A stretch of 64,000 nt of DNA, from positions 124,001 through 188,000 of the forward strand of contig NZ_NBYX01000007.1 in the NCBI RefSeq assembly GCF_002099195.1, given 5' to 3'. Source of the stretch: Burkholderia puraquae (GTDB lineage: Bacteria; Pseudomonadota; Gammaproteobacteria; Burkholderiales; Burkholderiaceae). Within the stretch, counting starts at the first letter, position 1; each line of letters starts with the position of its first letter. A program made the translations under genes and the position numbers. The notes below the pieces were generated by a model, which saw only the letters and a program-made list of their open reading frames with translations, made no database searches and was not told the origin of the DNA. Positions 1-12,299 of this stretch are shown piece by piece.

Positions 1-2074
1 GCTGGGGCGGAATCACCTGATGACGCAAACCGAGCAGCACCTGGATCACCGATACGACGCCGGCCGCCCAGCCCGTATGCCCCACCAGCGACTTGTTGGA
101 GGTCACCTGTACCGGGCGATCGCGCCGGATCGCGTCGCGCAGGCTCTGGAATTCGGCGAGATCGCCGGCCGGCGTGCCGGTGGCATGCGCCACGACCCAG
201 TCGACGTCGGCGGGCATCGTCGCGGTGCGCGCATACGCGCGGTCGATCGCGATGCGCTGGCCGGCCGAATTCGGCGCATAGATCGCCTTGCCCTTCCCGT
301 CCGACGATGAGCCGAACGACTTCAGCACGCCGAGAATGCGGTCGCCGTCCGCGCGCGCCCGCGTCAGGCGCTTCAGGATCACGACGCCCGCGCCATCCGC
401 GAACAGCACGCCGTCGCAGTTGCGATCGAGCGGCCGCACCTCGCCGCTGCGCGACAGCCCGTGCAGTTTCGAAAACAGGATCGAGCCGCGCGGTGCGAGC
501 GCGAACGCGCCGCCGCACGCAACCACGTCGTGCTTGCCGAGCAGCAGCGCCTTGATCCCGAGATCGATCGAATACAGTGACGACGAACACGCGGTGTCGA
601 CCATCATGTACTCCGCATCTTCCGGCAGCACGCCTTTCATCGCGTTCAGGCCAACACGGTGCGGAAAGAACGACGCAAGATCGCCCGCGCCGCGCGCATA
701 GCGCGCGCTCAGCACCGCATCGATCGCGGCCACGCGGCGCGCGCGCTCGGCCGCGTCGACGCCCGCGTCGGCCAGCACTGCGTTCAGGCGCTCGCGCGCG
801 GCGGCCAGCACCATTCCTTCCTCGAGATGCTGGCTGCCGTCCGCCGTGTAGCCGACCAGAAACGCGACGCGGTCGGCCTCGCACAGCGTCACGCCGTCGA
901 GCGCCTGGCACAGTGCGTGGCGCAACCACAGCGTCGTGAGTTCGCGCGGCGCGGTGCCGGCGTCGAGCTCGGCGCGCACCGTCGAGCACGGTTCGAACTG
1001 TTCGATGAAGACCGAGCGCGACTGGTAGCTCTTGTCTTCCGCCGACGTATCCGGCGAATAGAACGACCGGTAATCCCAACGATCCCGCGGCACGTTGCCG
1101 AACAGCTCGGGGCCGTCCAGCAACGCGCGCCAGAATGCGTCCGGATCGCTCGCGCCGGGCAATGCGAGACCCATGCCGACCACGGCGACGTCGTCGCTGT
1201 CCGGTGCGTCTTCGGCAGGCGCGGCCGTACGGGCGGCCGGTTGCGCGACGGCAGCGGCAGCGCCCGCATCCTGCCCGGCGCTCGCCCATTCCGCTCGCGG
1301 CGACAACCCTTCGCTGCACAGCGACAACCCGCCATCCGCGACGACCACCTGCCCGGTAATCCAGCGCGCGGCATCCGACGCGAGAAACACGACGAGATCG
1401 GCAAGATCCTCCGCGCGCGCGAGCCGCTTCAGCGGCGTCGCCGCGATGCTCGAGCGCTTCGTGTTCTCCGGGTCCGGAAACTGCGCGGCGACGTCGCCGT
1501 CGATCAGCGTCGACGATGCGCCGTTCACCCGGATCTCGCGACCCGCGTACTCGACCGCGAGATAGCGCGTCAGCGATTCGAGCGCCGCCTTCGCGGTGCC
1601 GACGACGAGATAGTTCGCGGGCACGAGCGTCGCGCCCACCGACGACACGTTGACGATCGCGCCGCCGCCCGAGCGCGCCATCAGCGCCGCGGCGCGGCGT
1701 GCGCACCAGAATGCGCCTTTCAGGTTGGTGTCGAGCGCGCGATCGAAATGCTCTGCGCCGATCTCGTCGACGCCGAGCAGCGCGCCGGACGCCGCATTGT
1801 TGACGAGCACGTCGAGGCGGCCGTAGCGCCGTTCGATCTCGTCGAACATCCGGTCGACCTGCGTCTGCTGCGCGACCGACGCACGGATCACGTCGACGGT
1901 CGCGCCGAGCGCGCGCAGTTCCTCGGCCGTCTCCTTCGACGCGTCGAGCGAATGGAAGAAATTCAGGATCACGTGCGCGCCCTGCTCGGCGAAACGCCTG
2001 CAGATCGCCTTTCCCACGTTTTTCGCACCGCCCGTCACGAGAACGAGCTTGCCGCGCATGCTGGTATTCGACAT
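1..2074 (-). CDS. FabL-like enoyl-ACP reductase fused to a ketosynthase (3' end beyond window)
   Basis: The open frame runs from an ATG at 2074 off the left edge (691 codons visible), so the C-terminus is unseen. Residues 1 to about 250 form a short-chain dehydrogenase fold with a glycine-rich VTGGAKNVGKA cofactor motif. The catalytic pair is Tyr155 and Lys162 with six residues between, the spacing of FabI/FabL enoyl-ACP reductases rather than the YxxxK of ketoreductases. The surrounding sequence also reads like FabL. After an Ala-rich linker, a beta-ketoacyl synthase begins near residue 293, with the active-site Cys496 in DTACSSSL, His630 in AHATGT and His666 in VGHTGW, so the condensation triad is complete. 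It follows the acyltransferase-ACP gene by 74 bases, so the two probably build an acyl or polyketide chain together. The product is unknown. Fusion of an ENR upstream of a KS is unusual. Confidence 0.85.
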   Translation of the reverse strand, partial: MSNTSMRGKLVLVTGGAKNVGKAICRRFAEQGAHVILNFFHSLDASKETAEELRALGATVDVIRASVAQQTQVDRMFDEIERRYGRLDVLVNNAASGALLGVDEIGAEHFDRALDTNLKGAFWCARRAAALMARSGGGAIVNVSSVGATLVPANYLVVGTAKAALESLTRYLAVEYAGREIRVNGASSTLIDGDVAAQFPDPENTKRSSIAATPLKRLARAEDLADLVVFLASDAARWITGQVVVADGGLSLCSEGLSPRAEWASAGQDAGAAAAVAQPAARTAAPAEDAPDSDDVAVVGMGLALPGASDPDAFWRALLDGPELFGNVPRDRWDYRSFYSPDTSAEDKSYQSRSVFIEQFEPCSTVRAELDAGTAPRELTTLWLRHALCQALDGVTLCEADRVAFLVGYTADGSQHLEEGMVLAAARERLNAVLADAGVDAAERARRVAAIDAVLSARYARGAGDLASFFPHRVGLNAMKGVLPEDAEYMMVDTACSSSLYSIDLGIKALLLGKHDVVACGGAFALAPRGSILFSKLHGLSRSGEVRPLDRNCDGVLFADGAGVVILKRLTRARADGDRILGVLKSFGSSSDGKGKAIYAPNSAGQRIAIDRAYARTATMPADVDWVVAHATGTPAGDLAEFQSLRDAIRRDRPVQVTSNKSLVGHTGWAAGVVSVIQVLLGLRHQVIPPQ

Positions 2075-2148
2075 GGATCGCCTGCCTATCGAGAACTTGT
2101 CATTACGGGCAGGGCCCCCCTGCCAACCGATGTTTCGGCCCACGGCCG

Positions 2149-3756
2149 TCAGGCGAGCGCCTTTCCCTGGTTCTCGTAGACGAAATCGACGATCTGTCCC
2201 ATCGCCTTGAAGTCGCCGCTGCGGAAATTCGCGGGCAGCGGCGGCAACGCATAGCGCGCCGTGATCCGCTGGATGATCTCCGTCTGCTTGACCGAGTCGA
2301 TACCGAGTTCGGCTTCGAGCTCGATCGATTCGGAGAACACCTCGGCCGGATATTCCATCGCCTGCGCGTAGATATCGACGAGCTCCGAGAACAGCCGCTC
2401 GCGCGGCACGTGCGCGGGCCGCGCCGCTGCAACCGCCGCGGGCGGCGCAGCCGCCGTCATCGGCTCACCCGGCGCATGCGGTGCCGCCGGCACCGGAACC
2501 GGCGTCAGCGCCGCCCCGCCCACTGCCGCGAGGCGCGGTGCGGGTGCGAGGATCGGGTCCGGCTGCGGCGCGAATGGCGTCGCCGCCGGTGCGGCGCCTG
2601 GCTGCACCGCGGCCGCCGCGTCGAACGCGTGACGCAGTTCGCCCTTGAGCCAGTCGACGAGGTGCGGTCCGCGCGCGCGCCAGAACGCGTCGAAGCCGAA
2701 GCTTGCGTTGCCGGTGCGGATATCGTCTTTCATGATGCTGTCCTCCTGGAAATAACGGATGATCGTCGTGACGACGCTCGATTCCTCTGCCACGTTCGAC
2801 GGGCCGCCGAACGTCCTGACCGCGCCCGGCCCCGCGATGCGCACGACGATGCGCGCCAGCGCATTGAGCGCGCCGCACTCGACGTAGCGGGCGATGCCGT
2901 CTGCGCGCGCGGCGCGAATCGCGTCCGCGAAGCGCACCGGCATCACGAAATGCGACGCGAGCCGCATGCCGGGATCGTCGGCGCCGCTATAGCGGCGGCC
3001 GAGGATCGGCGAATACACCGGAATCTCGAGTGCGCCGGGCCGATATTCGGCAAGCCGCGCGGCGAACTGCGCGCGCGCGCCGGCCAGATCGGGGTGATGA
3101 AAGCCATATGGAGACCTGAGCGTCTGCGCGGTCACGCCTTGCGCCGCGCAGATCGCGACGAAACTTTCCAGCGCGTCGCGCGGGCCGGACACGACGGTCT
3201 GCGACGCGTGGTTCTCGACCGCGATGCAGACGTTGCGCACCCCGTACGTGATCGCGCTCGCGTCGATCAGCGCGAGTGTCGCGTCGGCGCCGGCCGAAAT
3301 CGCGGCCATCATGCCGTCGGCCGGCGCTGCGGCCTGCAACGATGCAATCCTGTCGCATACGATCCGCGTGCCCTGCTCGATCGAATACATGCCGCCGCAC
3401 ACCAGCGCCGCGATCTCGCCGAAGCTGTGTCCGATCAGCAGGTCGGGGACGACGCCGCGTTCGCGCAGCACGCCGAACATCCCGACCGATGCCCCGAAGA
3501 TCCCGAGCTGCAACAAGTCGGGCGCCTCGCGCAGCCACGTATCGAGCCCCGCATCGTCGCGCCACAGCGCACCGGTCAGCGGATGGCCGAGCCGCTCGCT
3601 CGCAACCGCGTCGATCGCGTCGAGCGTCTGCCGCACACTGCGGTGTTCGCGCCCGAGTTGCCGCAACGCGCCCGCATAGAACGCCCCTTGTCCCGGGAAC
3701 AGGAACGCGCAGCCGCGCGCTTGCGCGTCGCCCGCGTTCAACCCGCGTCGTTCCAT
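2149..3756 (-). CDS. Malonyl/acyl-CoA acyltransferase with C-terminal acyl carrier protein
   Basis: A 535-residue protein. Residues 15-300 are an acyltransferase domain with a PGQGAF start, the nucleophile Ser111 in GHSFGE and a likely partner His220 in YGFHH. An Ala/Pro-rich linker (about 400-455) leads to an ACP domain with the phosphopantetheine site at Ser488 in LGIDSVK. The GIDSVK form resembles ACPs of polyunsaturated-fatty-acid and enediyne-type synthases more than primary FabD/AcpP. The ATG at 3756 was chosen because it is preceded by GGGAG/GGGAT and overlaps the end of the TolC-type gene by 19 bases. Much longer upstream readings run inside that gene. The role inferred is loading and carrying extender units for the adjacent ketosynthase. 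No ketoreductase or dehydratase gene is visible in the window. Confidence 0.85.
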   Translation of the reverse strand: MERRGLNAGDAQARGCAFLFPGQGAFYAGALRQLGREHRSVRQTLDAIDAVASERLGHPLTGALWRDDAGLDTWLREAPDLLQLGIFGASVGMFGVLRERGVVPDLLIGHSFGEIAALVCGGMYSIEQGTRIVCDRIASLQAAAPADGMMAAISAGADATLALIDASAITYGVRNVCIAVENHASQTVVSGPRDALESFVAICAAQGVTAQTLRSPYGFHHPDLAGARAQFAARLAEYRPGALEIPVYSPILGRRYSGADDPGMRLASHFVMPVRFADAIRAARADGIARYVECGALNALARIVVRIAGPGAVRTFGGPSNVAEESSVVTTIIRYFQEDSIMKDDIRTGNASFGFDAFWRARGPHLVDWLKGELRHAFDAAAAVQPGAAPAATPFAPQPDPILAPAPRLAAVGGAALTPVPVPAAPHAPGEPMTAAAPPAAVAAARPAHVPRERLFSELVDIYAQAMEYPAEVFSESIELEAELGIDSVKQTEIIQRITARYALPPLPANFRSGDFKAMGQIVDFVYENQGKALA

Positions 3757-5165
3757 AATCCCAATCTCCCAAGGCTCTCGGCCAGTTTCAGTCTCGCGGT
3801 GCGCCACCTCGACACCGCGAGCACCCGCTGCCGGCGCGCATCCGCGAGCGCCGACTGCGCATTCAGCAGTTCCGTGAACGTGCCAACCCCGGCCTTGTAG
3901 CGGCCGCGCGCGATGTCGAGCGAATGCAGCGCGGTGTCGAGCAGATGCTGCGAGTTGTCGAGGTTCGTCGTGTCGGTCTGCAGGCTCTGGTAGCTCTTCC
4001 ACACGTCGAGCGACACCTTGAGTTCGGTATTGCGCACGTCGGCTTCCTGCGCATCGGCCTGCGCCTTCGCCTCCGCGATGCGATACCCGGACGCGAATCC
4101 CTCGAACAGCGGAATCGAAATCTGGATGCCGACCGAATTGCTGTGACTGCTCTGCAACTGGAACAGCGACGGCTGCTGCTGGTATGACGGGTTGTTGCGC
4201 GCGAGGCTGCCCATCAGCGAAATCGTCGGCAGCGACTGGGCGCGCACCGCGCGGATCTGGTCGCGCGCCGCTTCGAGCCGCTCGCGTGCGGCGATCAGCT
4301 TTGGGTGATCGCGCTTCGCTTCGGCGATCAGGTTTGCGACGCCGCGCGTGAAGTCGTCGCGATCGGGCGACGGCTCCGCATCGGCGATGCGCAGCGGCGT
4401 ATCGGCGTCTGCGCCGAGCGTCGTCGCGAGCGTGCCGATCGCGTTCTGCAGGTCGCCCTCCGCGCTTACGCGATCGAGCAGCGCCTTGCGATAGGTCGTC
4501 TGCGCCTGCAACGCGTCGCCGAGCGTGCCCGCGCCACCGTCGTGCCGCGCGCTTGCTTCGGCCAGGCTCTCCTGTGCGGCATGTTCAACCGCCTGTGCCG
4601 CCTCGAGCGCCGCCTGCGCATCGCGCAGCGCATAGAACGCCTGCGCTGCGTCGTAGAAGACGCTCTGCAACGCGTCGTCGTGTGCCGCATTGGCCGCGCG
4701 CAGCAACGCACGCGCACGGTCGAGGTTCGCGCCGCGCTTGCCGAAATCGAACAGCACCCAGCTCAGGTTGAGCATGCCGTAGCGGCTGGTGCTGCGCTGA
4801 TCGCCGGAAAAACCGCCTGTATAGGTCGTGTTCACGTTGTCGCGCTCGATCCCGGCCGTCGCGTTCAGCGTCGGCAGGTACGCGGCCTTCGACACGCCGA
4901 CCTCGGCCGTCGCCGCGCGTGCGTCCGCCCACGTGCGGCTCAGTTGCGGATGGGAGCAGATCGCCAGCAGGATGGCGTCCTCGAGTGCGATCGGCCGGTC
5001 GTCGAGGCGCCGTGCGCCGCACGCGGTGGCCGATGCCATCGACCCGGCCTGCGTCGCCGCGACGTCGTCGCGCGTGCGATAGACGTCGAGCATCTGCGCG
5101 CCCGCGGGCAGTGCGGCGGCAAGCGCAACGGTGGCCAGCACGAGGGCGAACGATCGCTTCATCAT
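3738..5165 (-). CDS. TolC-family outer membrane channel of a type I secretion system
   Basis: A 475-residue protein with a typical Sec signal peptide (MMKRSF, then a hydrophobic stretch ending in AGAQ near residue 24). Two outer membrane efflux (OEP) repeats with long alpha-helical coiled segments follow, as expected for a TolC trimer tunnel. Its ATG abuts the stop of the ABC exporter with no gap, and its 3' end overlaps the acyltransferase-ACP gene, so it is almost certainly co-transcribed with both. Here it should form the outer membrane exit for the peptide exported by the adjacent C39 ABC protein and HlyD adaptor. That link of the export genes to the ACP gene by overlap is the main reason to treat the whole stretch as one unit. 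Confidence 0.9.
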   Translation of the reverse strand: MMKRSFALVLATVALAAALPAGAQMLDVYRTRDDVAATQAGSMASATACGARRLDDRPIALEDAILLAICSHPQLSRTWADARAATAEVGVSKAAYLPTLNATAGIERDNVNTTYTGGFSGDQRSTSRYGMLNLSWVLFDFGKRGANLDRARALLRAANAAHDDALQSVFYDAAQAFYALRDAQAALEAAQAVEHAAQESLAEASARHDGGAGTLGDALQAQTTYRKALLDRVSAEGDLQNAIGTLATTLGADADTPLRIADAEPSPDRDDFTRGVANLIAEAKRDHPKLIAARERLEAARDQIRAVRAQSLPTISLMGSLARNNPSYQQQPSLFQLQSSHSNSVGIQISIPLFEGFASGYRIAEAKAQADAQEADVRNTELKVSLDVWKSYQSLQTDTTNLDNSQHLLDTALHSLDIARGRYKAGVGTFTELLNAQSALADARRQRVLAVSRWRTARLKLAESLGRLGLWNDAG

Positions 5166-7388
5166 CTAGCGCCCCGCCACCGGCTGTACCGGATCGGCAT
5201 CGTGCGGCGCCGGCCGAGTCGCGGCCGGTACGCCCGCGTGCGACTTCGCCGCGGCCGCCGCGCGCATCGCCGCGGTCGACTGATCGAGCACGACCTTCCC
5301 GCCCTGCAGCATGATGACGCGCTGCGCGGACGCGATGGTCTCCGGCCGGTGCGCGACGATGAGCCGCGTCATCGCGAGCTGCGTGACGGCCGCATTGACC
5401 TGCATCTCGCGCTGAATGTCGAGATGGCTCGTCGCTTCGTCGAGCACCAGGATGCGCGGCCGCTTGTACAGCGCGCGCGCCAGCAGCACGCGCTGCTTCT
5501 GGCCGCCGGACAGTACGGTGCCCATGTCGCCGACGAGCGTGTTGTAACCCATCGGCATCGCCGCGATGTCGTCGTGCACGGCCGCGATGCGCGCGCATTC
5601 GGCGACCCAGTCCGGGTCCGCTTCCGGATCGAAGAAGCTGATGTTCTCGGCGATCGACCCCGCGAACAGCACGTCGTCCTGCAGCACCGTGCCGACCAGC
5701 GCGCGCAACCGCTCGATGCCGAGCCTGGCCACGTCGAGCCCGCCGATGCGCACGGCGCCGCCCGTCGGCTCGTGAATCCCGAGCAGCACGCCGATCAGCG
5801 TCGTCTTCCCGCAACCGGACTGCCCGACGATCGCGACCGATTCGCCGGCCGCGATCGTCGCATTGACACCGTCCAGCACAAGCGGCTCGCCGTCCGCATA
5901 GCGGAACGACAGCCCGTCGATCTCGATGCTCGCGTCGAGCGTGACCGCCTCGCCCGGCACGCTGCGCAGGCTCGCGTCGGGTTCCGCTTCGGTGAACACG
6001 ATGTCGGCCAGCCGCTCGCCCTGCAACTGCAGCATCTTGACCTCGAAATACTTGTCGATCAGGCTGCCAACCCGGCTGTCGAACTGATTCTTGTACGCGT
6101 TGAACGCCATCAGCACGCCGACCGTGAACTGGCCGTCCATCACCATCCGCGCGCCGAGCCAGATGACCAGCACGTTCTCGATGCCGAACAGCAGCCCGTT
6201 GAGCTGCTGGTAGAAGATCTGCAGCTTCTGCACGTGCAGGCTCGCGTTGACTTGCTCGACCAGCAGCGTGATCCAGCTCGCGCGACGCGCCGTCTGGCGG
6301 TTGAACAGCTTGATCGTCTTTACGCCGCGCACCGTTTCGAGGAAATGGCTCTGCTGCCTGGCCGCGTGCACGATCTGGTCCTCCGTCGCACGCCGCAACG
6401 GGCCGTACCACATCCAGCGGGCGAGCGCGTACAGCGCCATCGTCGCCATCGCGACGAGGCCGAGCGTGCGGCTGTATACGAACATCATCGCCAGCGTGAC
6501 GAGCGTCATCAGCCCGTCGATCACCGCACCGAGAAACGACGTGGTCAGCGTCTGCTGGATCGTGTCGATCGAGCCGAAGCGCGACACGACGTCGCCGAGA
6601 TGGCGGCGTTCGTAATAGCGCACCGGCAGGCTCAGCAGATGCGTGAACACGTTCGCCCGCCACTGGATGTTGAGCGTGACCCCGACATACATCAGCGCCC
6701 ACGCGCGAATCGCGCCGGTCGCCTGCTGCATCAGCAGCAGCAGGCCGAAGCCGAGCGCGAGCACCGTCAGCAGGTCGCGATCGGCGCTGACGATCACTTC
6801 GTCGATCACCCATTGCAGGAAGAACGGCTGCACGAGCATGAAGACTTCGAGCGCAATCGCCAGCACCAGAATCTGCGCGAGCGAACGCGACAACCCCGAC
6901 ACCGGGCCCAGCAGTTCGCGCAGCCTGACCGCCGGCCGCGCCGCGCGCGGCGCGAAGCCGGCGCTCGGCCACAGCTCCAGCGCGACGCCAGTAAACCCGC
7001 TCGAGACATCGGCGAGCGGCACCTTGCGAATACCGTGCGACGGATCGTGGATCGTCGCGGTCTTGCCGTTCACTTCCTTCAGCACGACGAAGTGGTTGAA
7101 ATTCCAGTGCAGCAGGCACGGCAGGCGCAACTGGCCGAGCTGCGCCATGTCGAGCTTCACCGCACGCGTGCCGAGCGACAGTAGCTGCGCGATCTCGATC
7201 ACGCGCCCCAGGCCCGCCCCCTTCAGCGAGACGGGAAACTGCGCGCGCAGCGTCGCGAGATCCATGTGATGGCCGTGATAGCCGGCCACCATCGCGAGAC
7301 ACGCGATGCCGCATTCGGCCGCTTCGGTCTGCAGGACCATCGGCAGCTTGCGGCCGAGGCCGAACGAGAGTCGATCGAGTAATCGCAT
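5166..7388 (-). CDS. Peptidase-containing ABC exporter (C39 domain, CvaB-like)
   Basis: A 740-residue inner membrane exporter. The N-terminal C39 peptidase has Gln20, Cys26 (QTEAAECG), His99 (WNFNHF) and Asp115 (HDPSHG), the complete cysteine-protease set that cuts behind a Gly-Gly leader. A six-helix membrane domain occupies roughly residues 160-440. The nucleotide-binding domain has a Walker A GQSGCGKTT, the signature LSGGQKQR and a Walker B VLVLDEATS-type segment. The ATG at 7388 starts 11 bases after the HlyD stop. A longer start at 7442 would lie inside the HlyD gene. Family knowledge says such proteins cleave and export GG-leader peptides, and the only such peptide gene in the window lies two genes upstream in the same operon. 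No catalytic residue appears to be missing. Confidence 0.93.
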   Translation of the reverse strand: MRLLDRLSFGLGRKLPMVLQTEAAECGIACLAMVAGYHGHHMDLATLRAQFPVSLKGAGLGRVIEIAQLLSLGTRAVKLDMAQLGQLRLPCLLHWNFNHFVVLKEVNGKTATIHDPSHGIRKVPLADVSSGFTGVALELWPSAGFAPRAARPAVRLRELLGPVSGLSRSLAQILVLAIALEVFMLVQPFFLQWVIDEVIVSADRDLLTVLALGFGLLLLMQQATGAIRAWALMYVGVTLNIQWRANVFTHLLSLPVRYYERRHLGDVVSRFGSIDTIQQTLTTSFLGAVIDGLMTLVTLAMMFVYSRTLGLVAMATMALYALARWMWYGPLRRATEDQIVHAARQQSHFLETVRGVKTIKLFNRQTARRASWITLLVEQVNASLHVQKLQIFYQQLNGLLFGIENVLVIWLGARMVMDGQFTVGVLMAFNAYKNQFDSRVGSLIDKYFEVKMLQLQGERLADIVFTEAEPDASLRSVPGEAVTLDASIEIDGLSFRYADGEPLVLDGVNATIAAGESVAIVGQSGCGKTTLIGVLLGIHEPTGGAVRIGGLDVARLGIERLRALVGTVLQDDVLFAGSIAENISFFDPEADPDWVAECARIAAVHDDIAAMPMGYNTLVGDMGTVLSGGQKQRVLLARALYKRPRILVLDEATSHLDIQREMQVNAAVTQLAMTRLIVAHRPETIASAQRVIMLQGGKVVLDQSTAAMRAAAAAKSHAGVPAATRPAPHDADPVQPVAGR

Positions 7389-7399
7389 GCGTGCGCCCG

Positions 7400-8671
7400 T
7401 CAGAGTTTGCCGGTCAGGCTGTAAAGCGGCTCGAGCACCCATTCGTACAGGCGCCTGCGTTCCTGCAGGATGTCCGCCTGCAACGTCATGCCGGCCTGCA
7501 GCGGTTGCTGCGCGCCGTAAGCGGTGACGTGCTGCGCGTCGAGCGCGACGATTACGCGGTAGAAAGTCGCGTCGCGCCCCTCTCCCGGCGTCGCCCCCGG
7601 GCCGCCGTCGTTCGCGAGTTCAGTCGCCGACAGCGCCGTGCGAGCGATCGACATGACCGTGGCCCCGTACTGACCGAATTTCTGATAAGGGAACGCCTGA
7701 TAGCGGACCAGCACCGGTTCGCCGACCCGCACGAAGCCGATCGCCGTGCTCGGCACGAACAGGTGTGCCTGCCAGCGCGCGCCGCCCGGCACGACACTCG
7801 CGAGCGGCCGCGACGTATCGACCGACTGGCCGACGTCGGCGATCGCGGCCGTGACGACGCCCGCCTCCGGCGCCGTGACGACGATCCGGCGCTTCGCCTC
7901 GCTTTCGATCAGGTTCTGGTCGACGTCGATCACGTTGCGGTCGATCTGCGCGAGCTGGTTCTGCTGCTTGAAGCCGAGCCCCGACAGTTCGTTGCTCGCC
8001 TCGGTGATCGACTGGAGCGTCGATGCACGGTCGCGCAGCAGCCCGTTCAGCTTCGATTGCTGGTCGAGCAAGTCGGCCTCGCGCTGCTGCGCCTGGTCCT
8101 TCGAGATGTAATCCTGCGCGAGCAGGCCGCGATAGCGCGTCGCGCCGTCGGCCGCGATCGACGTGCGCAGCCGCTGGGCCGCGAGCTGGTCGTCGATTTG
8201 CGCGAGCGTGCCTTTCAGGTTCACGATCTTCGCGCGCAGCGTGTCGCGTTCGTCCTGCTGCAGGCTGCGGGTCTTGTCCATTTCCGCGAGCAGCGACGCC
8301 TTGCGCTGCCGCGCCTGCGCGATCAATGCGGCCTGCGTCGCGCCTTGCGCCGCGCTCAGCAAGTCGGTCGACACCGTATAGAGCGTCTGCCCGCGCGTCA
8401 CGCGCTGCCCTTCCTTCACGTCGCGCTCGACAACGATGCCCGGCTGCAATGCATAGACCTTGACCAGCCCCGCATCCGGCATCACCACGCCGGAGACCGT
8501 CGTGCGCCGCGTATACGTACCAAACGTGAAGAACAGCACCACGCAGGTGGCCATGACCATCGCGACGACCGTCAGCAGCGTCATGGGCAGGGGGTGCACC
8601 AGCACGATGTCGCCCAGCACCCGCATACGCCGAGCCTGTGCCGCTTCAGAACGAAAGAGACCGAACTCCAT
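7400..8671 (-). CDS. HlyD/CvaA-family membrane fusion protein of the peptide exporter
   Basis: A 423-residue periplasmic adaptor with a short cytoplasmic N-terminus (MEFGLFRSEA), one membrane helix near residues 30-50, then lipoyl-like half-motifs flanking a long coiled-coil hairpin (about 100-290) and a C-terminal beta-barrel/membrane-proximal part. This is the usual HlyD layout, and it would bridge the ABC exporter to the TolC channel. The ATG at 8671 is preferred. An in-frame GTG 51 bases upstream is possible, but homologs of this family start close to the FRSEA block. The gene lies between the leader-peptide gene (164-base spacer) and the exporter gene (11 bases), the order of microcin-type export operons. 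Confidence 0.9.
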   Translation of the reverse strand: MEFGLFRSEAAQARRMRVLGDIVLVHPLPMTLLTVVAMVMATCVVLFFTFGTYTRRTTVSGVVMPDAGLVKVYALQPGIVVERDVKEGQRVTRGQTLYTVSTDLLSAAQGATQAALIAQARQRKASLLAEMDKTRSLQQDERDTLRAKIVNLKGTLAQIDDQLAAQRLRTSIAADGATRYRGLLAQDYISKDQAQQREADLLDQQSKLNGLLRDRASTLQSITEASNELSGLGFKQQNQLAQIDRNVIDVDQNLIESEAKRRIVVTAPEAGVVTAAIADVGQSVDTSRPLASVVPGGARWQAHLFVPSTAIGFVRVGEPVLVRYQAFPYQKFGQYGATVMSIARTALSATELANDGGPGATPGEGRDATFYRVIVALDAQHVTAYGAQQPLQAGMTLQADILQERRRLYEWVLEPLYSLTGKL

Positions 8672-8835
8672 TTTCACCAACGTGTCGCCAAATATCGGTA
8701 TCGACGTCCATTCCGCTTCCACGCGTCGGAACAGGCGAAAGCGATCCGGTATACAAAGAAGACCCGTGCATACCGGATCGTCAGTTCCATCATTGGGAGA
8801 CGCGGCGGCTACCGCGTCGCCTCAACGCGGGCAAC

Positions 8836-9078
8836 TCAGTACTGCGGGCCGCCGAAAAGGCCGTCCAGCAGGTTCACCGCGGCGGTCGTGATCGTCTCGC
8901 CGATGTTGTATGCCTGCTTGACCGGTGCGGCGAAGATGCCGAACGTCAGCGCATTGCCGATGCTCTCCGCGGTGCTGCCGCCCCATTCGATGATGTTGCC
9001 CAGTGCCGACGGGATGCCCGGGCCGCTGTAGTAGCCGCCGGAAACTTGTGCGATTTCCTGTTGATTCAGTTCTTGCAT
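8836..9078 (-). CDS. Double-glycine leader peptide, candidate substrate of the C39 exporter
   Basis: An 80-residue precursor. The first 15 residues (MQELNQQEIAQVSGG) match the consensus of Gly-Gly leaders: acidic/amide start, Leu4, Ile9 and VSGG at the cut site, as in microcin V-type precursors. The predicted core is 65 residues, begins YYSGPG, has no cysteine, is rich in Gly, Ala, Ile and Leu and has a slightly acidic net charge, so it looks amphipathic or membrane-active. The ATG at 9078 has a clear GGAG about eight bases upstream. It is the first gene of the export operon, with an inverted repeat just upstream of its Shine-Dalgarno. No neighbouring small gene resembles an immunity protein, so a bacteriocin role is only one option. 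A signal or acylated peptide would also fit. Confidence 0.82.
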   Translation of the reverse strand: MQELNQQEIAQVSGGYYSGPGIPSALGNIIEWGGSTAESIGNALTFGIFAAPVKQAYNIGETITTAAVNLLDGLFGGPQY

Positions 9079-9100
9079 TGCATTTCTCCAGTTTCAAAAT

Positions 9101-9119
9101 GCTAGATAATCCATCTAGC
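9101..9119 (-). promoter_or_regulatory. Perfect inverted repeat upstream of the leader peptide gene
   Basis: The sequence is GCTAGAT, five bases, ATCTAGC. It is a perfect 7-bp dyad lying 23-41 bases before the peptide start codon and just upstream of its Shine-Dalgarno. It could be an operator for a dimeric repressor or a short hairpin in the mRNA leader. The DNA is read directly. The function is inferred. Confidence 0.45.
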
Positions 9120-9812
9120 GGGGCATCGAACAACGCCGCAATTGCGACGCAGATCAACACGTTAAATAGATTTAAACTTTCGAACGACGTGACATATCGA
9201 CCAGGCGGAATTAAATAAATGCATCAGCCCTGCTCAAATGGCGTATAAAATCCCGTCGGCCGAGATGAATCGGTCGCTCTTTCTCAGCAATCGACAACCG
9301 GACGGCAATTCAGCGGCAATATGCGTGCATTCTCCGTCCCGCCCGGCGTCCGGCTGAAAGACGCCGAGTACGCCGAGTAACGGACGCGTAGATGCCCCGC
9401 GCATGGATGCCGCGGCACCCGCACGTCATGGAGTACGAAGTTTCAACGAAAAAGACTGCCCGACCGAGAATAATCGTGTGCCAAATGCCGCTCACCTAAT
9501 CAACGAAACGTCATTGGATGGCTGGTCGACATCAGATTTCACCTCGGAGATTCTTACAGCACTGAATCCGACGGGCCAATGATCCGTCACTTTTCCGGCG
9601 CTCTTTGTACGATACCGCACCATCTGGCAAACCAGATATTTTGAGGATTGACGGAATTTCCGGCTCACATACTGGCCGCCCTGATCCGAGTGGAACAGCA
9701 ATGGAAGAATTGCATTAAGACCGAAGTCAACGAAAATTGCGTACCAATTTAAGCTTGACGCCGCCCCGCAGCCGCATGGGCATGCGGAAAAACCGCTCGA
9801 GGCAAGGCAGCG
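9120..9812. other. Gene-poor, relatively AT-rich spacer
   Basis: No intact gene is seen between the peptide operon and the AsmA gene. Base composition between about 9120 and 9250 and again from 9500 to 9750 is clearly more AT-rich than the flanks. The first part probably holds the promoter of the minus-strand peptide operon, though no convincing -35/-10 pair was fixed. The second part contains a transposase remnant. Confidence 0.6.
9640..9730 (-). pseudogene. IS3-family transposase (OrfB) remnant
   Basis: A minus-strand frame reads LLFHSDQGGQYVSRKFRQ, the conserved segment around the second catalytic Asp of IS3-family DDE transposases (usual form HSDQGSQYTS). Upstream and downstream conserved parts (the first Asp and the final Glu region) are absent and the similarity stops after the RKFRQ block, so only a short piece survives. 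No terminal inverted repeats were found. The remnant marks past insertion-sequence activity at the edge of the peptide/PKS operon. Confidence 0.65.
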
Positions 9813-12299
9813 TTACCGGCCGTGAGAGGACGCCCGGTTCGACCGCTCCGCCTGCCCGGGTTCGGCGCTGGCCGGCGCGGAAGCCGCCGAGGCCGACGAA
9901 GCAGCCGACAGCGCGTTCATATACGCCGGTGCAGGCTTCGCCTTCTGCCGGATTCCCGGCGGTGGCGCCGTCGGGCGCTGCTCCATGCTGGCCAGCATCT
10001 GCTGGCACGGCAACGGGCGGTTGCGGCCCGGCTGCAGCAACGCGAGCAGACTCGCGAGCGGATTCAGCAAGCCCAGCCCGATCGCTGCCCCGCCACGCGC
10101 GATCAGCGCGCCGGCCTTGACCCCGACGTGCGGCTGCTTGAAGGAGCCGGTGACGTACAGTGGCGAGCGTAGCGATATCACGCGGAATCCCTTGGTATGG
10201 GGATGGATCGTGAGATTCATGGTCTCGTCTCGCAGGTTCACGTTACCGTCCATTCCGATCACCGCATCATCGGTGTCGAGCGCGAACACGCGCGAATCGA
10301 GCACGCCATTGGTGACCACGAAGTCGGCCACGCCGCAATTGATCCTGACGTCGCGTGTGCCGAACAATTTCTCGTACACCACGTTTGCAACGTTCAGCCC
10401 GGCGGCTTCCATCAACAAGAGACTCACCGTGCCGTCGGTCACCAACGTCTTCACTTCCCCGTTGGAAGTCGCTGCGAGTGCCGCCGGCGAATTGCCGGTG
10501 GCCGACAACGCGGCATCGCCGTTGACCTCGCCGAGCGCCGTTTGCATCACCGTGAATGTCGGGAACAGTTGCTTGAGTTTCAGATGTCGCGCCTGCAGCG
10601 AGAATCGCCCTTTGAGCGGCACGCCGCTGCCGTCCAGGTGAATGTTCGACGCAAGCGTCCCGCCCGCGACACCGAAGTTCAGCGGGTCGAGCGTCAGCAC
10701 ACCGTCATGCATGATGACGTGGGTCGACAAGTCGGTAATCGGCAAGCTCGAAGTCTTGACGATGCGCCGCCCGGTAAATCGAACATCGGCGTCGACCTTC
10801 TTCCAGCGGTCCGTGCGGAACGGCTCGACCGGCAACGCCTTGTTCGCGGGCTGCGCGACGGCGGCGCCCCGCCGCGCCTTGCTGGCATTCGTGTCGGCGC
10901 CGATGAGCGGTGCAAGGTCGGAGAACTGCAGCAGCTTTGACACCAGCGTACCGGACAAGAGCGGCCTCGGCTCGCGCGAAACGTACACCAGCGTGCCGTT
11001 GAGATCGCTGCCGCCGACGCGTCCCGTGAAGTCCTCGTACTTGAAGACGTTGCCGGACGCCCGGAACTGGCCGACCAGTCGGCCGTCGGTCGCATAAGGC
11101 GGGGTTTCGGGCAGGGTGATGCCCGTGACTTCATACAGGTGAGCCATGCTGGTGCCCGCGAGCCACAGTCGGAGATCCACCGCTGCCAGGTGAGACGGAT
11201 CGGTCAGCGTGCCGACGAGCGCCAGGTGCGTATCGCCAAAGCGCAAATCGGCCTGAACCGGAAACGGGTGTTGCGTACCCTGCACCTCCAGCAAATTGCC
11301 GATCTTGCCGGTGCCGACGACCTTCCCCTTCTTGTAGGTCCCCTTGACGGTCCAGCCGATCGTGTAAGTGCCAACGCCGGCAGATGCTGCGGGCGCCGCG
11401 CCCGCCGATGCGTTCGCTGCCGCGGAGGCCGTTGCGCCCGGTGCGGCAGCCGCGGGTGCGCTCGACGCCGCCGGCAGGCCAGATGCAGCCGGAGCGATCG
11501 CGGTGCCGGACGTCATCGCTGCAGCATGCGACGCAGCGGCCACCGCTTGCGAGGCCGCTGCCGATGCGCGGGACGCCGCTTCGGCACCCGACGCAGGCAC
11601 CACCGGTTGCGTCGAACCGGCGTGCGCCTGGGCCGCGAGCTTTTTTTGACCTGCCGGCCCGACGGCCTGTGCCGATTCGTGGCGCGCCGACGCCTCCTGC
11701 TGTTTCACCACCGCGCCGAACGGAATCGGCCGGCCGAGCGTGTCGATCACGGCGCTCAGATCGAATTGCTTTTGCTGGTCGTAGTAGCCGAGATTGCCTT
11801 GGGCAAACGCGATCTCATGCAGGTCGAGCGTCCATCGGCCGCGATGCGCGGGCTCCTTGAGCTTGATCGTCCAGTTGACTCGCCCGTCCCTGAGGCGTTC
11901 GAGGTCGACGGACGGATTGACCAGATCGATGGCCGGAATCACGATTCGGCGTGCCATCAGCGGCAGCGCCTCGACTTCGAAGCTGATCTCGTCCAGCGTG
12001 ACGAAATGCTTCGTGCGCGCCCAATCCGGGTTGGCGATCGTGACATTGCGTGCGCTGAATCGCGGCCATGGCACCCATGCACGCCAGCCCTGCTCGCTCA
12101 CGGGCCGACGCCACCCGATACGGAGGTCGCCGTTGATGGCGAACTGCCGTCCGATCGCGTCGGATACCTTGTCATCTACCCAAGGCCGGGCTCGATTCCA
12201 GTCGAACGTCACCATGAAGACAACCAGCGCTGCAAGCGCCAGCGTGACGATAACGGCAAGCCACGCGGCCGCCTTGCCGACGGTGTGGCCGATGTGCAT
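9813..12299 (-). CDS. AsmA-family envelope protein
   Basis: An 828-residue protein with one N-terminal membrane helix (about residues 12-32) followed by the DWNRARPWV block typical of AsmA-like proteins, and a C-terminal AsmA_2-like region ending near an IALGLL-type hydrophobic segment. Between them lies a low-complexity Ala/Ser/Pro insert (about residues 200-300) that is probably unstructured. AsmA relatives are bridge-like lipid-transport or outer-membrane-biogenesis proteins. The exact substrate here is unknown. The ATG at 12299 is preceded by GGGGGAG. The gene is monocistronic and divergent from the PhoD gene. Confidence 0.85.
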   Translation of the reverse strand: MHIGHTVGKAAAWLAVIVTLALAALVVFMVTFDWNRARPWVDDKVSDAIGRQFAINGDLRIGWRRPVSEQGWRAWVPWPRFSARNVTIANPDWARTKHFVTLDEISFEVEALPLMARRIVIPAIDLVNPSVDLERLRDGRVNWTIKLKEPAHRGRWTLDLHEIAFAQGNLGYYDQQKQFDLSAVIDTLGRPIPFGAVVKQQEASARHESAQAVGPAGQKKLAAQAHAGSTQPVVPASGAEAASRASAAASQAVAAASHAAAMTSGTAIAPAASGLPAASSAPAAAAPGATASAAANASAGAAPAASAGVGTYTIGWTVKGTYKKGKVVGTGKIGNLLEVQGTQHPFPVQADLRFGDTHLALVGTLTDPSHLAAVDLRLWLAGTSMAHLYEVTGITLPETPPYATDGRLVGQFRASGNVFKYEDFTGRVGGSDLNGTLVYVSREPRPLLSGTLVSKLLQFSDLAPLIGADTNASKARRGAAVAQPANKALPVEPFRTDRWKKVDADVRFTGRRIVKTSSLPITDLSTHVIMHDGVLTLDPLNFGVAGGTLASNIHLDGSGVPLKGRFSLQARHLKLKQLFPTFTVMQTALGEVNGDAALSATGNSPAALAATSNGEVKTLVTDGTVSLLLMEAAGLNVANVVYEKLFGTRDVRINCGVADFVVTNGVLDSRVFALDTDDAVIGMDGNVNLRDETMNLTIHPHTKGFRVISLRSPLYVTGSFKQPHVGVKAGALIARGGAAIGLGLLNPLASLLALLQPGRNRPLPCQQMLASMEQRPTAPPPGIRQKAKPAPAYMNALSAASSASAASAPASAEPGQAERSNRASSHGR

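Follow-up and report, generated by a model that had tools for sequence, protein, structure and literature searches.

Why should a small, secreted, microcin-like peptide share a gene unit with enzymes that appear to build a lipid? The question is raised by a locus at the beginning of a 64,000-nucleotide stretch of the 8.1 Mb genome of Burkholderia puraquae (RefSeq assembly GCF_002099195.1, contig NZ_NBYX01000007.1, positions 124,001 to 188,000, forward strand), referred to below as the window. Here, the genes for a double-glycine (GG) peptide and its type I exporter stand in one operon with a synthase resembling those of polyunsaturated fatty acids (PUFAs). Judged from the genes alone, we cautiously favour the reading that two products, the peptide and a lipid, are exported in parallel and act together. 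The initial annotation had proposed either a peptide carrying an acyl or polyketide group or a lipid made together with its peptide partner; the second is the better of the two. A gene order shared by nine genomes and a differently arranged union of the same genes in Paraburkholderia ginsengisoli support one unit over neighbours by chance.

All six minus-strand genes first noticed in the window, encoding the GG-leader peptide, HlyD, the C39 ABC exporter, TolC, a protein with an acyltransferase and an acyl carrier domain (AT-ACP) and a ketosynthase (KS) protein, are present as open reading frames and by Pfam. The last of these had been read as an enoyl reductase-ketosynthase; the KS and a FabL-like short-chain dehydrogenase/reductase (SDR) are real, but form the N-terminal part of a 1983-aa protein that is cut by the window edge and continues with a chain length factor (CLF), a ketoreductase (KR) and a dehydratase (DH). 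Extending the contig leftward, as had been proposed, added nine further operon genes, including KR and DH domains, and the cluster thus exceeds the window as a 15-gene minus-strand operon. From the 5' end, the leader element and the genes are as follows (positions prefixed L009 or L010 belong to stretches of the extended contig):

9079..9178, minus strand: conserved leader element, with hairpin P1 at 9128-9155 and hairpin P2 (GCTAGATGGATTATCTAGC) at 9101-9119, followed by the ribosome-binding site
8836..9078, minus strand: double-glycine peptide, 80 aa (open reading frame)
7400..8671 (start uncertain, 8626 to 8722), minus strand: HlyD-type membrane fusion protein (PF13437, HlyD_3, 5.2e-17; TIGR01843, 5.8e-38, below cut-off)
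5166..7388, minus strand: C39 peptidase-ABC exporter, 740 aa (PF03412, Peptidase_C39, 7.8e-34; PF00664, ABC_membrane; PF00005, ABC_tran; best NCBIfam match TIGR03796, below cut-off)
3738..5165, minus strand: TolC-type outer-membrane channel (PF02321, OEP, 1.9e-65; TIGR01844, 1.4e-62, just below cut-off)
2149..3756, minus strand: AT-ACP, acyltransferase with a single acyl carrier domain (PF00698, Acyl_transf_1, 4.3e-29; PF00550, PP-binding, 0.0021)
1..2074, ending outside the window, minus strand: N-terminal part of the SDR-KS-CLF-KR-DH synthase, 1983 aa (whole gene L010:2123-8074; adh_short_C2, ketoacyl-synt, KR, PKS_DH_N)
L009:12125-16126, minus strand: P450-KR-DH protein, 1333 aa
L009:10722-12104, minus strand: flavin monooxygenase (FMO)
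L009:10009-10725, minus strand: LolD-like ATPase (also TIGR02982, DevA, 1.3e-60, below cut-off)
L009:8603-10012, minus strand: FtsX permease
L009:7771-8550, minus strand: LolA-like protein
L009:6455-7774, minus strand: predicted outer-membrane barrel protein, 439 aa
L009:6022-6438, minus strand: DUF4345 protein
L009:4917-6029, minus strand: alpha/beta hydrolase (lipase)
L009:3888-4913, minus strand: lipase foldase

Do these genes form one unit, or are they neighbours by chance? The abutting and overlapping gene ends on which the initial annotation had built its case are confirmed: the stop of the ABC gene and the start of the TolC gene lie 0 nt apart, and the TolC and AT-ACP genes overlap by 19 nt. 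From HlyD to the foldase, intergenic spacings in the window operon range from -19 to 74 nt, and the peptide gene lies 209 nt ahead of the HlyD start chosen by the gene caller. No promoter or terminator was seen to split the operon in positions 1-9900, with 0 sigma-70-like sites against 1.4 expected in a scan limited to this promoter type, and with terminator-like sites at chance level (6 against 5.8 expected). A single unit is further supported by comparison. A peptide search of 200 relatives matched 16 genomes, from which 17 places were taken for locus comparison, and at eight further loci the genes from peptide to FMO stand in the same order, followed in 8/8 by those from LolD to the foldase. 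These loci include B. seminalis (G060), B. cepacia LK29 (G012), B. metallica (G026), B. territorii (G002), Burkholderia sp. BCC0506 (G018) and a Burkholderia metagenome-assembled genome (G029). The 19-nt overlap is kept in the window and in seven of the eight (8/9 in all); the lone locus without it is that of B. seminalis, where AT-ACP is split over two frames and the gene caller began late. This split copy (L032:6801-8634) may be inactive or reflect a sequencing error.

The second union, in P. ginsengisoli (G239), has a different layout: the peptide gene and the leader element stand at the 5' end, with the peptide about 0.3 kb before AT-ACP, and HlyD, ABC and TolC follow the foldase at the 3' end. 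A complete record of this species, which is not independent of G239, has the system on a 214-kb plasmid, in an island flanked by IS110 on one side and by IS66, IS21 and IS6 elements on the other. The island holds the peptide (annotated as hypothetical), the genes from synthase to foldase, a phosphopantetheinyl transferase and the exporter genes, and no other gene listed in the incomplete gene table; HlyD, present in G239, would span the origin of the plasmid record. Among 72,556 plasmid records, the peptide was matched in this plasmid only, and AT-ACP at E<=1e-20 in this one and in a Streptomyces plasmid (35% identity). The G239 exporter clusters with those of G047, G033a, G046, G051b and G023 (97/99 support), and the nine linked exporters form a separate clade (100/100), with that of G251, a genome without an AT-ACP match, nested inside.

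How closely do peptide and synthase keep together beyond these operons? The sample comprised 398 genomes of the family and 13 further genomes of the genus, one of which (G052) was already in the exporter search. AT-ACP was matched at E<=1e-25 in 40/398, with 17 orthologue-like matches (E<=2.7e-100, 47-100% identity) and 23 generic acyltransferases (E>=1.1e-32). The peptide profile A1 found 15/398 genomes, all 15 inside the 17 synthase genomes, and in six of the 15 the peptide and synthase are unlinked; the further genomes hold the synthase in two (G014, G029) and the peptide in the same two, G014 being a further unlinked case by its contig positions. At eight loci (G006, G030, G033, G034, G047, G051, G419, G480) the order from synthase to lipase is kept, with no exporter or peptide within the 32 kb examined. 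Six of these (not G419 and G480) carry a gene of about 245 aa resembling a phosphopantetheinyl transferase (by eye) ahead of the lipase, and none of the six gave a foldase match. The same six loci (L109-L112, L115, L116) have genes for an MlaA lipoprotein and a transporter of the HpnN type upstream of the synthase and divergent from it, classified for G047 and assigned in the other five by position and sequence start. An order-wide peptide search (399 genomes) returned the window and three weak matches (E 7e-4 to 3e-3), the best of which is, by eye, a double-glycine peptide that is rich in glycine, has a similar leader and lies close to an exporter-like fragment; no such peptide gene was seen for the remaining two.

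The initial annotation had asked whether the two parts occur apart as often as together. At the level of loci this is nearly so, the exporter standing with 10/18 mapped synthase loci and being absent from 8/18, and the exporter is far commoner than the synthase; at the level of genomes the peptide was never found without the synthase where both were sought. These figures bear on the view that the peptide unit and the lipid cluster are functionally independent and merely travel together as useful accessory genes, which we consider unlikely. In its favour, the exporter occurs in 60/398 genomes (E<=1e-150) against 17/398 for the synthase, the eight synthase loci just named have no exporter, and the independent cases on the gyrB tree are few. 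It sits poorly, however, with the tight spacing preserved in nine genomes, with two unions of different gene order, and with unlinked peptides (G030, G033, G034, G047, G014) found only where the synthase is. Co-occurrence runs in one direction, the peptide being seen only with the synthase and the synthase at times by itself, a pattern consistent with a peptide that depends on the lipid, be it as a partner, for protection or as a substituent.

Several points weigh against joint action of peptide and lipid. The trait is scattered over a gyrB tree of 70 genomes, in which G042, with neither component, comes out as sister to G030, G033, G006, G051 and G034, which all hold both unlinked (support values were not read). 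Parsimony requires 12 synthase and 11 peptide changes, but without the nine linked genomes these numbers fall to 4 and 3, so that the genome-level link has about three independent cases behind it, a modest number. The linked operon may have been inherited or transferred as a single block, in which case its nine genomes count little as co-occurrence. Forcing the P. ginsengisoli exporter into the linked clade was only just rejected (p-AU, from the approximately unbiased test, 0.043), for a group named after a tree had been seen. Furthermore, G419 and G480 hold the synthase without the peptide, the peptide status of G006 and G051 rests on weak relatives (E 2-3e-7), candidates scored per genome were limited to three in the AT-ACP search and two in the exporter search, and the exporter family serves other peptides too.

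What, then, does the exporter carry? At 25 loci of the same exporter family, glycine-rich microcin-like precursors were recognised by pattern at six, five of them in synthase-free genomes, other double-glycine precursors at G049 and G051, and none at the remaining 17/25. Since microcin-like precursors sit at five exporter loci of synthase-free genomes, the exporter is taken to handle peptides. The same exporter family also accompanies paired MQEL-type peptides (L047, L048, L121), which adjoin type VI secretion-like genes (by eye) and are possibly two-peptide microcins. That the C39/HlyD/TolC exporter instead carries the lipid, the peptide being an accessory of lipid export, we regard as very improbable. 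Its genes do belong to the same operon, heterocyst glycolipids leave the cell via an ABC-HlyD-TolC route, and the LolD-like ATPase has the DevA match listed above; against this stand the Cys and His motifs retained by the C39 peptidase domain (by eye), the presence of the same exporter family beside peptides in synthase-free genomes, and the Lol-barrel genes kept by the eight synthase loci without exporter.

The synthase shares with PUFA synthases (PfaA-E) and with the PUFA-synthase-like clusters of zeamine, fabclavine and megapolipeptin (PMC13291983) a KS with CLF, AT, ACP, KR and DH. KS, KR and DH are identified by Pfam, the CLF by eye as a KS-like stretch without the active-site Cys, and the KS, ACP and P450 motifs likewise by eye; the SDR is FabL-like, below the FabL cut-off. 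Unlike these systems, it reaches 315 bits with TIGR02813 (PfaA), far under the cut-off of 1010, it includes a P450 fusion, and in place of tandem ACPs a single PP-binding match was found, that of AT-ACP, with none in the KS-CLF or P450-KR proteins at E<=0.001. The C-terminus of the P450-KR protein was considered as an acyl-transferring domain and rejected; it matches polyketide synthase (PKS) dehydratases (predicted structure, mean pLDDT 62).

From the gene content, order and co-occurrence observed, we infer the order of the enzymes, the product, its parallel export and its purpose as follows. AT-ACP and the KS-CLF synthase, with its KR, DH and enoyl-reductase-like SDR, would work with the second KR-DH, fused to P450, and the flavin monooxygenase in an iterative, PUFA-synthase-like chain building, the product being a reduced, oxygenated long-chain lipid. 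The LolD/FtsX pair, the LolA-like carrier and the AlgE-like barrel would move this lipid to or through the outer membrane, and the secreted lipase, with its foldase, would act outside. In parallel, the C39 exporter would cleave the peptide after its GG leader and release it through HlyD-TolC as an unmodified, hydrophobic, microcin-like product. Peptide and lipid would be made together because they act together, the lipid most likely either shielding the producer from its own peptide or partnering the peptide at the target surface.

Could the acyl chain instead be attached to the peptide, as in the lipolanthines, goadvionins and selidamides? Lipidated ribosomal peptides are already known, and in these families, too, acyl or polyketide genes lie alongside a ribosomal peptide. 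A covalent lipopeptide would account for a peptide found only with the synthase and a synthase sometimes alone; no thioesterase domain appeared in Pfam scans of the synthase proteins, which leaves the acyl acceptor open, and acylation at the N-terminus or at Ser, Thr or Tyr would be compatible with the sequences. We nevertheless judge it quite improbable, and the acylated peptide of the initial annotation is not supported: Pfam scans of the 15 operon proteins recognised no GNAT, HlyC-type or condensation enzyme (the barrel protein had no family match), and Lys and Cys are both missing from the cores of three peptides encoded inside such operons (G002, G054 and G239). The role of a substituent is disfavoured because some operon-encoded cores have no Lys or Cys and no maturase was recognised. 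Moreover, the peptide would gain a free N-terminus only once the C39 domain cuts it on its way out, at a distance from the cytoplasmic acyl-ACP, and the Lol-barrel genes would give the lipid an exit of its own. The operon further differs from those of lipolanthines, goadvionins and selidamides in that no lanthionine or GNAT maturase was found, export is of the C39 type, and some cores have no Lys.

The peptide itself consists of the MQELNQQEIAQVSGG leader and a 65-aa core without Cys. The window peptide has no Pfam match at E<=1, and its relatives show sub-threshold matches to Bacteriocin_IIc (7/14, best E 0.007), MccV (3/14, best 0.0022) and the E492 group; a PDB profile search with the peptides gave no match below E 0.1. 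In 14 aligned members the double-glycine leader is retained, two of them having GA rather than GG, and the cores have a net charge of -1 to -4 and no Cys; Lys is absent from four of the 14 (G002, G054, G239 and one of G014). The leader and cleavage region are nearly invariant, yet two core alleles occur among the nine linked loci, with 93-96% identity within an allele and 31% between alleles; the core of G029 is identical to that of G054. The other operon genes, compared without AT-ACP (split in G060), show 62-95% identity between and 67-97% within the two core groups, the biggest drops being those of the foldase (62 between; 74 and 67 within), the Crp-like regulator (73; 82 and 79) and HlyD (88; 95 and 93).

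Gram-negative microcins are usually accompanied by dedicated immunity proteins. Like class II microcins (MccV, MccE492 group), the peptide described here has a GG leader, a C39 ABC exporter, HlyD, TolC and a hydrophobic core; unlike them, its gene belongs to the operon of a lipid synthase, a search beside it revealed no immunity gene, and the other operon genes do not change to a comparable degree when its core is swapped. Between the peptide and HlyD genes of the nine loci (95-227 nt), no gene of at least 40 aa was called, none for immunity is listed in the incomplete gene table of the P. ginsengisoli island, and no operon gene follows the core swap as an allele-specific immunity gene would; immunity genes elsewhere in the genome were not sought. 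This absence and the partnerless swap fit a general, lipid-based tolerance. We suggest, tentatively and as a possibility that is still doubtful, that the two products form one weapon in which a polyketide-like envelope lipid, built and exported by this operon, replaces the immunity protein: the producer would be tolerant whatever the core, and cores could be swapped at will with no need for a matching immunity gene.

Upstream of the peptide gene, sequence is conserved for about 110 nt only, and the two-hairpin leader stands before most peptide genes. Across 20 aligned upstream regions, 93.3% of cells are paired, and two-sided changes occur in 23 cells against 8.5 in shuffles; a protein-bound DNA dyad would give the same two-sided changes as an RNA hairpin. 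By its sequence, the element may be a cis-regulatory RNA that has not been described before, or else an operator dyad. A search for a known RNA family gave no Rfam match. Model R1 gave 24 matches in 70 genomes, confined to the 17 with peptide and synthase, positives which are largely so by construction. The element is missing before the strong G034 peptide (L037) and the MQEL peptide of the synthase-free G049, and none was found at synthase loci without exporter in eight 20-kb stretches (L109-L116). Two leader matches, at G033:C85:85184-85288 (apparently at a contig end) and G030:C83:136465-136574, have no MQEL peptide in the stretch read. Also upstream, a transposase-like fragment (by eye) lies at 9492-9701 of the window, minus strand, between the peptide gene and an AsmA-like gene. 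At the other end of the operon, 3' of the foldase, a 431-nt gap is followed by the Crp-like regulator and then by a GGDEF-EAL protein.

The putative exit route of the lipid resembles Lol lipoprotein sorting and MacB/DevA-type exporters in its LolD-like ATPase, FtsX permease and LolA-like carrier, and differs from them in its dedicated outer-membrane barrel and in the occurrence of the four-gene set beside other lipid or polyketide genes as well. For the 439-aa protein, structure prediction on the orthologue in L168 gives an outer-membrane barrel (mean pLDDT 84); its best PDB match is the alginate exporter AlgE, followed closely by Occ porins, MOMP and general porins, at TM-scores of about 0.4-0.6. 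Among solved structures, the hydrolase matches triacylglycerol lipases such as 1oil and 2lip (E 3.9e-144), which we take to be Burkholderia cepacia lipases. By pattern, the Lol-barrel set also occurs without a GG peptide, alone or beside other synthases: it recurs in most of L183-L247, largely Burkholderiales, on its own or next to other genes resembling those of PKSs or nonribosomal peptide synthetases. Going by its gene neighbourhoods, the set looks like a general export module for lipids or natural products.

PUFA-synthase-like enzymes joined to nonribosomal peptides have been described (PMC13291983); in contrast to those clusters, the peptide partner here is ribosomal. A literature search of titles and abstract openings, with most subscription papers outside its reach, located no description of a microcin-like peptide that leaves through a C39 exporter and is encoded together with such a synthase in a single operon. 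A microcin-like ribosomal peptide tied to a lipid synthase and a lipid-export system in two arrangements would, if the reading is true, represent another kind of peptide-lipid partnership, and removal of the synthase should then alter peptide activity or producer tolerance. The locus also draws attention to the four-gene lipid-export set found in many Burkholderiales. Taken as a whole, the genomic evidence points to some Burkholderia and their relatives pairing the synthesis and export of an unusual lipid with a small bacteriocin-like peptide in one gene unit, the two products of which would be used together.

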